Assembly: GCF_004137245.1 (NCBI RefSeq)
Contig: NZ_SDWS01000002.1
Location: 1 to 64,000, forward strand
Length of the DNA stretch: 64,000 nucleotides
Direction: 5' to 3'
Source of the DNA: Nocardioides glacieisoli
GTDB taxonomy: Bacteria; Actinomycetota; Actinomycetes; Propionibacteriales; Nocardioidaceae
How positions within the stretch are numbered: the stretch's first letter is position 1; each line of letters begins with the position of its first letter. Under the pieces are notes generated by a model that saw only the letters and a program-made list of their open reading frames with translations, was not told the DNA's origin and did no database searches. Position numbers and translations under genes: made by a program. Shown here in pieces: positions 7,114 through 10,648 of this stretch.

Positions 7114-8550
7114 CTAGCTCGTCGACACCGAGGTGTCGTCGAGCACGAAGCTCGTCTGGAGCGACGAGTCCTCGTTCATCAGGAACTTCACGGTGACCGT
7201 CTGCCCCTTGTAGGCCAGCAGGCTGTGGGTGAACTGGGCGTACGTCGCGCTGGTCCCGACGTTGCTGAAGGTCCTCAACGTGGTGGTCGTGGTGCCGCGG
7301 ACCACCTGCACCTTCAGGGTGTCGTACGCCGTCGACCCGGACTCGGCGGTGTCGGTGCGGATCCAGTAGCCGAGCGACGCCGCGGTCGCGGTGGACGGGA
7401 TGGTCACCTGCTGCGAGATGGTCTCCGACGACGTGCTGCCGTTGCCGCCGAGCCACGCCTTCCACGACCCCGTCCGCGCAGGACGGCCCGTGTTGTTCGT
7501 GATCGGACCCGACGTCCCCGCCCAGCTGACCGCACCGGACTCGAAGCCCGGGTTGGCGAGGAGGTTGCCGCCGGCGGGCGGCGTGGTCGGTGGCGGCGTG
7601 GTGCCGAAGTCCTTGTCGGCGTAGAGCCACACCATGTGGCCGATCATGTCGAGGTTGCGGTCGAGCGCGGTGGTGTTGACGTTGGAGATCGTGTCGCACG
7701 AGCGGTGGTAGCAGGGGTCGAACTGCTGCCCGGCCGTGCCGCCCCACTTCTGCGCCTGCGCCGACGTCTTGGTGGTCTCGCCACCGGAGTACATGCCGGT
7801 CGTGGCGATGCCGTAGCTGCGGAACGACGCGTGGTCGGAGCGACCCTGCACGTCGATGTACTCCCAGGGGATGCCCTCAGACGCGTAGTAGCCGGTCATC
7901 GCGTCGCGCGCGAAGTTGCCGACGGCGTTGTCGTTGTAGACGAAGTAGCCCGGGTTCGGCGAGCCGACCATGTCGAAGTTCAGGTAGAGGTCGATCCGGT
8001 CCTTGTCGGCCGTCGGCAGCGTCGACATGTAGCGGTTCGAGCCGAGGAGGCCCTGCTCCTCCGCACCCCACCACGCGAAGCGGAGGTGGTTGCGCGAGGT
8101 GTTGCCGCTGCCTGCCCAGGCCAGTGCGGCCTCGAGGATCGCGGCCGACCCGGTGCCGTTGTCGTTGATGCCCGGGCCCGACGAGACGCTGTCGAGGTGC
8201 GCGCCGGTCATCACCACGTGCTCGGGGTCGCCGCCCGGCCAGTCGGCGATGAGGTTGTACGACGTCCCCGACGAGGTCGAGAACGACTGGACCTGCGTGG
8301 TGTAGCCGACTGCGTCGAGCTTGGCCTTCACCCAGTCGAGCGAGGCCTTGTAGCCGGGTCGCCCGGTCGCGCGGTTGCCGCCGTTGGCGGTCGCGATCGA
8401 CTGCAGCTGCTGGAGGTGGGCGGTCACGTTGGTGATGCTCAGGTCGGGCGAGGCGGCCGCGGTGGCGGGGGTGCTGCCGCCGACGAGTGTCGAGGCGGCG
8501 AGGGCGCCGGCCGCCACCAAGGAGAGTGCGGTCGTGCGAAGGGTGCGCAT
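7114..8550 (-). CDS. Secreted M28 aminopeptidase with C-terminal beta-sandwich module
   Basis: The 478-residue preprotein has a signal peptide (about 1-32, ending ATAAA). The M28 zinc aminopeptidase domain (about 36-315) resembles Streptomyces griseus aminopeptidase: H118 in TGAHLDS, D130 in GINDNGTG, the catalytic E164 with ligand E165 in GAEEQG, D193 in NFDMVG and H282 in [13 protein letters not shown], with a likely disulfide C280-C285. A Thr/Pro linker (316-327) leads to a module of about 145 residues (NPGFESG... to the end) that is nearly duplicated at the end of the neighbouring M4 protease. It should release N-terminal amino acids outside the cell. GGGAG upstream of the ATG is a plausible ribosome site. 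Confidence 0.93.
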
Positions 8551-8632
8551 GGGGACTCCCGAGAGGTAGGGACTGGGACGAGAACGGGGCGGGGCAGCCA
8601 GGCTGCCCCGCCCCGTCAGGGTGCGAGATGCG

Positions 8633-10648
8633 TCAGGAGCCGTTCAGCGCGGTGTCGTCGACCACGAAGCTCGTCTGGAGCGACGAGTCCTCGGTCATGG
8701 TGAAGCGGATCGTGACCGTCCTGCCCCTGTACGCGGTGAGGGCGTGCGAGAACTGGGTGTAGGTCGCGTTGGTGCCGACGTTGGTGAACGTGCGGAGCGT
8801 GGTGACGGTCGAACCGTCCACCACCTGCACCCGCATCCGGTCGTACACCGTCGAGCCGCTCTCGGCGGTGTCCGTCCGGATCCAGTACGACAGCGTCGCC
8901 GCCGTCGCGCTGGAGGGGATGGTCACCGACTGGTTGATCGTCTCGGTGCTGGTGGTGCCGTTGCCGCCGAGCCACGCCTTGTACGAGCCGGTCCGAGCAG
9001 GGCGACCGGTGTTGGTGGTGATCAGGCCGGTGTTGCCGGTCCACACGGTGGGCCCGGACTCGAAGCCCGGGTTGGCGAGGACGTTGCCGCCGGTGGGCGG
9101 CGTGGTGGGCGGCGTGGTGGTGCCACCGCACGTCGGGTCGGCGGTCTGGGCCGGCACGTTGACCGCGTCCCAGGCGTTCTTGACCGCGTTGAACTGGGCG
9201 CAGGTGCTGTCGATGTTCTTGGCAGCGGTGAGGGTCCAGGTGCGGTACTTGAGGTAGTTCGACGACGAGGTCTTCATCAGCATCGCGTTGTAGAGGACCT
9301 TGATGGCCGCCTGCTCGCCGATGCCGGTGGTCGAGGTGCCGTCGCACTTCGAGACACCGCCACGCGACAGCAGGTAGAACCAGTGGTCGCCGACGCCGGC
9401 CGCGGTGTGCACGGGCAGGGTCGCGGTCGAGCTGGTGTAGCACGACGGGTCGCCGGCGTTGGCCGGGTTGGAGCCGTCACGGATCGGGCCCTGGCCGACG
9501 AGGTTGATCTCCTCGCCGATGGTGTGGTCCGGACCGTCGTAGGTCGCCGACTGGTTGTCGTAGTACTCGGTGGCCGTCGCGAGCGCGTCACCGATGAACT
9601 CCTGGGTGCCGCCGCCGGAGATGCCACCGGGAGTGCGGTCGTCCACGCCGTGGCCGAACTCGTGGGCCACGACGTCGATCGAGGTGATCCACTGGCCGAC
9701 GGTGTTCTTGCCGAACTGGGTCTGCGTGCCGTCGTAGTAGGCGTTCTGGTCGTTGAGGCCGACCCGCATCGGGACCCAGCCGCCGTTGCCGTCCATGCCG
9801 TTGCGGCCGAGCCAGGACGACATCATCGCCTTCATCTGCTGGGCGGCGTAGAGGCCGTCGACGCAGCCGGTCTCCTTGTTGGTGCCGTTGCCGTTGCCCC
9901 ACAGGTCGTCGGTGCCGGTGAACGTGGTGTTGGTGGCCGAGTCCTGGCAGCGCAGCGTGGTCGCGGTCGGGTCGGTCATCGAGTAGCTGCTGCCCGAGCC
10001 GCTGGTCGCGATCGGGAGCGGGTTCGGGCCGGAGTACGCCGCGGTGCCGGAGCCGTGCGCGATCTGCTCGCGCGACTCGAGGACGTCGCCGGTGGTGGCG
10101 TCGACCCAGACCTTCTGCCAGGAGACCTCGCCGGCGTCGGTGCCGCGCACCTCGACCTCGTAGGCCAGCTTGGTGCCGGCGTCGCGGTGCCAGATGACGA
10201 GCTCGGGCGCAGTGGCCTCCGCGCCCTGGTCGGCCAGCGCCTTCGCGGCGGCCGTCGCGCGGGCGGCGTCGATCTTCGCCGTGGTGCTGCCGATCTCGAC
10301 GGGCGCCTCCTGGGCGACCGACGAGCCGACGACCTGGCCTGCGGAGTTGGCGAGGACGACGAAGTCGCCACCGACCACGCGCAGGCCTTCATGGGTCCGC
10401 TCGTAGGCCACGGAGTAGACCGAGCCGGTGCCCTCGAAGGTGCCGGTGCGGACGAAGGCGTCCTGCGAGGCGCGCTCGAGCGCGTTGCCGTGACCCTTCA
10501 CCCAGGCAGCGGCTGCCTGCTGGGCCTCTGCGCGGGGGTTGCCCGTCGAGGGTGCGGCATCGGCCGGGGTGGCGGTCGGTGCCAGGAACGACGCAGCGAC
10601 GGCTGTCGCTGCGATACCGGCCAGTGCGGCCAGACGAGGTGTCTTCAC
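8633..10648 (-). CDS. Secreted M4 (thermolysin-like) metalloprotease with propeptide and shared C-terminal module
   Basis: The preproenzyme of about 671 residues has a signal peptide (first 30 residues), an FTP/PepSY propeptide (about 40-195) and an M4 catalytic domain. The zinc motif HEFGH is at about 329-333 and the third ligand is the E of TQEFIGDA about 20 residues later; [15 protein letters not shown] provides the usual histidine region near the end of the domain. After a Pro/Thr linker comes a module of about 145 residues nearly identical in pattern to that of the downstream M28 enzyme. GTG 10648 is chosen because it places the basic residues just before the hydrophobic core; a TTG at 10663 is an alternative. 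With the M28 gene it forms a tandem secreted proteolysis pair, endopeptidase then aminopeptidase. Confidence 0.93.

Follow-up and report, generated by a model that had tools for sequence, protein, structure and literature searches.

The DNA analysed here (the window) comprises 64,000 nucleotides of Nocardioides glacieisoli, positions 1 to 64,000 of contig NZ_SDWS01000002.1, and the system in question is a pair of adjacent genes encoding an M4 (thermolysin-family) endopeptidase and an M28 aminopeptidase, both of which end in the same type of 148-residue module behind a linker. Comparison with other actinobacterial genomes places this pair within a recurrent tandem, and in two related lineages, families f3 and f9, the modules of the two neighbouring genes are more alike within a genome than between genomes, as would be expected if an accessory domain had been repeatedly re-copied between genes of unrelated catalytic families. 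The features of the pair are as follows.

7114-7116, minus strand: stop codon of the M28 gene
7117-8550, minus strand: M28 aminopeptidase gene, 478 amino acids (M28 domain, Pro/Thr linker, C-terminal module)
7117-7560, minus strand: C-terminal module of M28, 148 amino acids
7561-7605, minus strand: Pro/Thr/Gly linker of M28
8633-8635, minus strand: stop codon of the M4 gene
8636-10663, minus strand: M4 endopeptidase gene, open frame of 676 codons from TTG
8636-9079, minus strand: C-terminal module of M4, 148 amino acids
9080-9118, minus strand: Thr/Pro/Gly linker of M4 (residues 516-528)
9119-10048, minus strand: M4 catalytic core (residues 206-515), of type I in the core dimorphism described below

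The paired genes and their modules

The M4 gene lies upstream of the M28 gene on the same strand, with 82 bases between its stop codon and the M28 ATG; judging from where similarity to homologues begins, an in-frame GTG at codon 6 is a likelier M4 start than the TTG. The M4 and M4_C domains are matched at 96.5 and 81.9 bits, above the Pfam cut-off, and an HEFGH motif fits the HExxH pattern, placing the enzyme in family M4; its pro-region contains an FTP match, accompanied by a PepSY match just under the cut-off. Peptidase_M28 is matched at 156.8 bits, likewise above the cut-off, which assigns the neighbour to family M28, and residues H118, D120, D130, E164/E165, D193 and H282, which we take to be the metal and catalytic ligands, are invariant in 13 aligned rows, the window included. 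The two catalytic domains belong to different Pfam families and are unrelated, as the first-pass annotation of this DNA had stated. By eye, the M28 N-terminus resembles a signal peptide. In a full-length model of M28 with a pLDDT (predicted local distance difference test score) of 63.8, too weak to judge how the module packs on the enzyme, the low-confidence linker stretch covers residues 317-371 and is longer than 7561-7605. A scan for promoters and terminators found nothing, a null that says little.

The two modules align without gaps, with 108 of 148 residues identical (73%) and 88% positive (E 3e-81), and at the DNA level they form a 300-nucleotide ungapped direct repeat of 76% identity. 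This likeness is far beyond chance. All five peptides that the first-pass annotation quoted as matching runs were found in both proteins, behind the Pro/Thr linkers; the shared module it described is present, but 73% identity is too low for its wording "near-identical". Searched in full at the protein level, the genome (4.58 Mb in 36 contigs) yielded just these two copies, on the M4 and M28 enzymes only. Identity between each copy and its orthologue in G070, the nearest genome compared, is 94-95%, against 73% between the two neighbours, which rules out recent copying in the window genome and indicates, at the level of sequence, that the two modules parted long ago with no recent exchange between them.

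In the module tree, from which hits under 70 bits and the duplicate loci L061, L064 and L065 were removed, tandem-type modules form one clade of 52 rows with support of 98/99. Both window copies fall inside it, together with those of a lone M4 (L066) and a trypsin-like carrier (L050); modules of other long lone M4s and of S8 enzymes lie outside. The possibility raised beforehand, that the module is merely a common old domain with no closer match between these two proteins, is thus borne out as regards age and commonness, but not as regards the match, since the two copies share the tandem-type clade.

Fold and spread of the module

The isolated module, modelled from 33 aligned sequences, is predicted to form an eight-strand beta sandwich; the model is of moderate quality (pLDDT 72.8), its first 30 residues being unreliable at below 50. 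Within that limit the fold is of the MAM type. Among solved structures the highest Z score (11.6, with a root-mean-square deviation of 2.7 over 122 aligned residues) belongs to the MAM domain of an M6 immune inhibitor A peptidase, followed by the MAM domains of meprin and receptor phosphatases at about 10-11 and other MAM domains at about 9-11. The InhA-like MAM domain of M6 peptidases (PF20773), with its eukaryotic MAM counterparts, thus gives the highest Z and a weak but consistent profile match, the window modules scoring 17.1 and 21.9 bits against a gathering score of 26.9; some homologues pass (L050 27.7, L180 37.5, L187 31.4 and L177 29.3 bits) and others fall below. As modelled, the module is MAM-like by fold, while formal PF20773 membership does not extend to the window copies. 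The binding domain proposed in the first-pass annotation agrees with this structure comparison, the fold being that of binding domains. M6 peptidases bear their own MAM domain at a different position; at L083 the MAM domain lies between catalytic and VEG domains, whereas the window module is C-terminal behind a linker.

Other known domains are less close. The choice-of-anchor J profile (NF038128) matches over most of the module, the isolated copies reaching 23.1 and 27.9 bits against a 30-bit cut-off, and the window proteins end with the module, with no sorting signal after it. CBM61 and CBM16, of the same broad beta-sandwich class, rank first in Foldseek when hits are sorted by E-value (6e-5 and 1e-4), but have TM-scores of 0.51 and 0.44 against 0.60 for InhA2 and Z scores of 8.6-8.9 against 11.6.

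Sequence searches identify the module as an old, widespread actinobacterial domain on many secreted peptidases. Carriers recognised by Pfam or by similarity include M4, M28, S8, trypsin-like (Trypsin_2), M1 and M12-like peptidases, and in L187 the module is N-terminal to the M1 domain. It was detected in all 38 genomes of family f3, in at least 82 of 215 Nocardioides genomes (E<=1e-25), in at least 49 of 119 genomes of family f9 (E<=1e-30) and in at least 10 of 396 genomes sampled evenly across the phylum (E<=1e-12, window genome included), the last three counts being lower bounds, because for some genomes scoring covered only a portion of the initial candidates. Copies across actinobacteria on many peptidases rule out a module private to this pair. 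A phage collection gave no module match, and 21 plasmid records match the module, all below 60% identity. Outside Actinomycetota, a Janthinobacterium lividum plasmid (NZ_CP139977.1, 156751-157197) carries the module on a proteobacterial M4 peptidase, at 48% identity. One f9 genome of 3.5 Mb (G404; loci L180, L186 and L191) has nine copies, and at L180 two modules are joined by a Thr/Ala/Pro-rich repeat, with no catalytic Pfam match within the 649 residues read of the 1,368-residue frame.

The recurrent tandem and homogenisation of its modules

The tandem with a module on both partners was found at 58 loci, 17 in Nocardioides, 33 in f3 and 8 in f9; the Knoellia locus L049 was placed with f9 and not f3, the three duplicate loci named above were left out, and L059 and L119, with a broken or short M28, were not counted as pairs. 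M4 precedes M28 on one strand at all 58, and the coordinated endo/exo pair implied by the first-pass annotation holds to the extent of this recurrent arrangement. Tandems were located through the module search, which fixes the presence of the module on both partners by construction, but not their order or strand. From the M4 end to the start of the M28 module the spacing is 1.04-1.16 kb at 51 of the 58 loci and 2.75-2.82 kb at six f3 loci; at L053, where the sole wide-spaced insert was read, an M4 gene without a module (4237-5997, minus strand) lies between the module-bearing genes.

The partners are not retained equally. Tandem-type M4 genes without a close M28 occur in seven Nocardioides genomes, one of them just 61% complete, and five of 38 f3 genomes lack an intact M28 module beside M4, with the M4 copy only in G237, G240 and G248 and a broken or short M28 in G054 and G236. 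At L059 and L119 the M28 frame is broken or short and the adjoining M4 is intact. Conversely, of 26 M28 matches at E<=1e-90 in the 215 genomes, the 17 with at least 74% identity are all in tandem. Retention of M4 without M28, and not the reverse, would fit a dependence of M28 on M4 products.

The catalytic partners themselves differ between lineages. The tandem M4 of f3 and Knoellia comes from another M4 subfamily; it shares 34-37% identity with the window M4, from which a very long branch separates it in the catalytic tree, and the f3 tandem modules are about 56-71% identical to those of the window. At L199 (1775-6988) the tandem is triple, M4 - trypsin-like - M28, with the module on all three; that of the trypsin-like enzyme is 93% identical in nucleotides to the M28 module and 79% to the M4 module.

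If a single duplication had been followed by no further copying, the M28 module beside a given M4 gene should resemble that gene's module no more than the M28 modules of other genomes in the lineage do, and the own-neighbour and other-genome identities of the two modules were compared within each lineage by permutation. In f3 (33 pairs) own identity exceeds other at nucleotide (0.826 vs 0.789), amino acid (0.807 vs 0.760) and third-position level (0.729 vs 0.689); none of 20,000 permutations reached the observed value, and in 32 of 33 cases the own M28 module is nearer than the average M28 module of the other genomes. In f9 (8 pairs) the nucleotide values are 0.819 vs 0.772, one of 40,320 permutations was as high, and the own M28 module is nearer than the mean in 7 of 8. 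The control, limited to f3, was the unlinked module of a lone M4 elsewhere in 21 genomes; its own-genome difference is 0.003 against M4 (p 0.015) and 0.001 against M28 (p 0.20), compared with 0.031 for the tandem in the same genomes. The quartet statistic D, which sets sites grouping by genome against crossed ones, is 0.63 in f3 and 0.58 in f9, against 0.18 and 0.06 for the unlinked f3 controls, and a sign test over disjoint quartets gives p 3e-5 for f3.

Neighbours can also be set against orthologues. In f9 they are on average the more alike (nucleotide 0.819 vs 0.801 and 0.766), the own M28 module beating the mean M4 module in 7 of 8 cases. Quartet sites grouping by genome outnumber those grouping by enzyme in both f3 (10,058 vs 8,376) and f9 (672 vs 293), and the balance is reversed in the 21-genome f3 subset (3,276 vs 4,428). 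The clearest single case is L058, where the two modules have 24 differences in 447 nucleotides (94.6% identity); 11 fall within the first 6 or the last 10 nucleotides and 13 are scattered between, as if a tract inside the module had been copied. Taken together, these comparisons of aligned modules show within-genome homogenisation in two related lineages, and the own-neighbour excess is what recurrent gene conversion, the presumed mechanism, would predict. The earlier proposal that the module was copied from one gene to the other is thus clear for f3 and f9, but does not extend to a recent or private event in the window genome.

Possible function, alternatives and relation to known systems

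The reading we favour, and hold to be somewhat better than evenly probable, combines a shared MAM-like targeting module, a recurring endo/exo tandem and repeated re-copying of the module between neighbours. In this view secreted peptidases carry, on a flexible linker, a beta-sandwich domain of the MAM or immune-inhibitor-A type that would serve in targeting, and a common module would let M4 and M28 gather on one surface or one insoluble protein. M4 peptidases break chains internally, and M28 peptidases of this kind take residues off the N-terminus; M4 would open internal bonds and M28 would then trim the new N-termini. Because the modules are nearby direct repeats, they may be re-copied repeatedly between the two genes. 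The likeliest function is that an endo- and an exopeptidase are targeted together, with the targeting role, the division of labour and secretion all putative.

A number of observations weigh against this reading. At E<=1e-25, 133 of 215 Nocardioides genomes show no module, its presence on both tandem partners is built into the search, and its structural model is only moderate. The permutations correct for relatedness only in part; the M4-versus-unlinked control is itself slightly positive (amino acid p 0.003, nucleotide p 0.015), and the third-position D of the controls is raised (0.21 and 0.24 vs 0.41 for the tandem), so that part of the signal is genome-wide similarity. The f9 sign test over disjoint quartets gives p 0.06. 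In f3 neighbours are about as alike as orthologues (nucleotide 0.826 vs 0.821 for M4-M4 and 0.814 for M28-M28), and M4 modules are nearer to their own M28 than to the mean M4 in just 14 of 33 cases. Within the window's own genus the alignments yield a weak homogenisation signal: among 17 pairs, own and other identities are 0.773 vs 0.765 for nucleotides (p 0.009) and 0.736 vs 0.719 for amino acids (p 0.0005), third positions give p 0.09, the longest exact run is no longer in own pairs (p 0.19), the own M28 module is nearer than others in 10 of 17, and quartet D is 0.18, the same as that of one control. Against orthologues, the Nocardioides neighbours stand at 0.773 vs 0.834 for M4-M4 and 0.804, the own neighbour being nearer in 2 of 17. 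Most Nocardioides copies in the module tree group by enzyme, with six M4 modules inside the M28-module clade; the M4 modules of L042, L044, L047 and L120 combine M28-type residues in columns 125-128 with M4-type residues in column 109 and the last column, a mixture that could stem from an older exchange.

Alternatively, matching modules may bring no advantage, the homogenisation arising neutrally as close direct repeats recombine, a view to which we give a probability just short of even. It is in keeping with the position of the M28 module, 1.04-1.16 kb past the M4 end at most loci, and with an effect that is small or absent for the unlinked copy. The six wide-spaced f3 loci speak weakly against it, as they keep own identity above the mean for others (0.817/0.790, 0.764/0.725, 0.859/0.797, 0.837/0.781, 0.843/0.793 and 0.839/0.735).

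It is tempting, if rather speculative, to regard the tandem module copies as a recombination frame for matched protease sets, that is, as a self-homogenising modular "degradation cassette" in which conversion would keep the module alike while catalytic parts are exchanged. The exchanges in question are the other M4 subfamily in other families, the trypsin-like enzyme added in one genome and the swapping of core types in Nocardioides.

Between the window and G070 every compared segment is 85-98% identical, whereas the M4 catalytic core is 68% identical. The cores sort into two types: identity is 81-98% among type I members, 89-99% among type II members and 68-79% across the two, with a third type (55-62%) in G069; the mosaic alignment covered 18 of 24 tandem-type Nocardioides M4 genes, the type of G121 being taken from the nearest-genome comparison alone. 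The core is bounded on one side near residues 190-205, roughly where the propeptide gives way to the mature enzyme, and on the other near residues 500-515, ahead of the linker. Mapped on a phylogeny of four flanking genes from 18 genomes (G200, G172 and G158 were left out for missing flanks), types I and II each need at least six changes, four of them forced by well-supported branches, and core types are no more clustered than shuffled labels. The core thus moves between species, whereas inheritance of the propeptide, the module and the neighbouring genes is mostly vertical. G070 and G019 have cores that are 99% identical, but the data do not support a recent horizontal transfer between the two: at third positions the identity of the core (84.3%) is like that of the propeptide (82.5%).

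That the module is a C-terminal pro-domain or an aid to secretion or stability, cut off in maturation and without a targeting role, seems to us unlikely. Its place at the extreme C-terminus behind a flexible linker, on several peptidase families, would suit such a role, and so would the parallel with PPC domains, likewise accessory C-terminal domains, on M4, M9, M28 and S8 enzymes, which are usually cleaved after secretion (PMC3327674). The same study shows PPC domains binding protein substrates (PMC3327674), and a module that stands N-terminal to M1 in L187 and twice in L180 is unlike a tail removable everywhere. No PPC match was found in the window proteins at E<=1 in Pfam. Least probable, and to our minds quite improbable, is the absence of any exchange, with one ancient duplication and strong constraint keeping the modules alike, which fits Nocardioides, where modules sort mostly by enzyme (M4-M4 identity exceeding that of own neighbours) and the window's two modules are far less like each other than each is like its orthologue, but leaves unexplained the own-neighbour excess of f3 and f9, given the unlinked f3 control, as well as L058 and the L199 triple.

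Convergent to the pair lies an M3 oligopeptidase gene without the module (5073-7001, plus strand; Peptidase_M3, 311 bits). An M3 gene stands beside the M4/M28 locus in 18 of 20 Nocardioides regions read, though it may be no more than a neighbour of the pair, and no signal peptide was discerned in the window M3 protein by eye. A set of S8, M28 and M3 enzymes has been proposed for keratin breakdown by a fungus (PMC4756042); with an adjoining M3 that has no signal peptide by eye, a keratin-type endo/exo/oligo set at this locus was set aside as a lead only.

The system makes it possible to ask directly whether selection holds secreted enzymes that act together to a single targeting specificity; if it does, mismatched modules should lose synergy, and the M4 and M28 (once also trypsin-like) enzymes with matching modules form a natural set for tests of protein digestion. 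Literature searches, at the level of titles and abstract openings, turned up nothing on this arrangement or on homogenisation restricted to an accessory domain that neighbours of unrelated enzyme families share, which does not establish that no such report exists. What is new here concerns evolution, namely the re-copying of the module between neighbours, the module itself being an already known domain. The closest known parallel is the concerted evolution of prokaryotic paralogues (PMC6053082), in which copies within a genome are kept alike and gene conversion is inferred, as here; long-lasting cases are there called rare, with 26 genes, and in the part of that source available domain shuffling is raised for mtrA only. 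Those cases are paralogous genes, and concerted evolution is usually described for whole genes of this kind, whereas here, in two actinobacterial lineages, it is apparently confined to an accessory domain homogenised between unrelated catalytic families.

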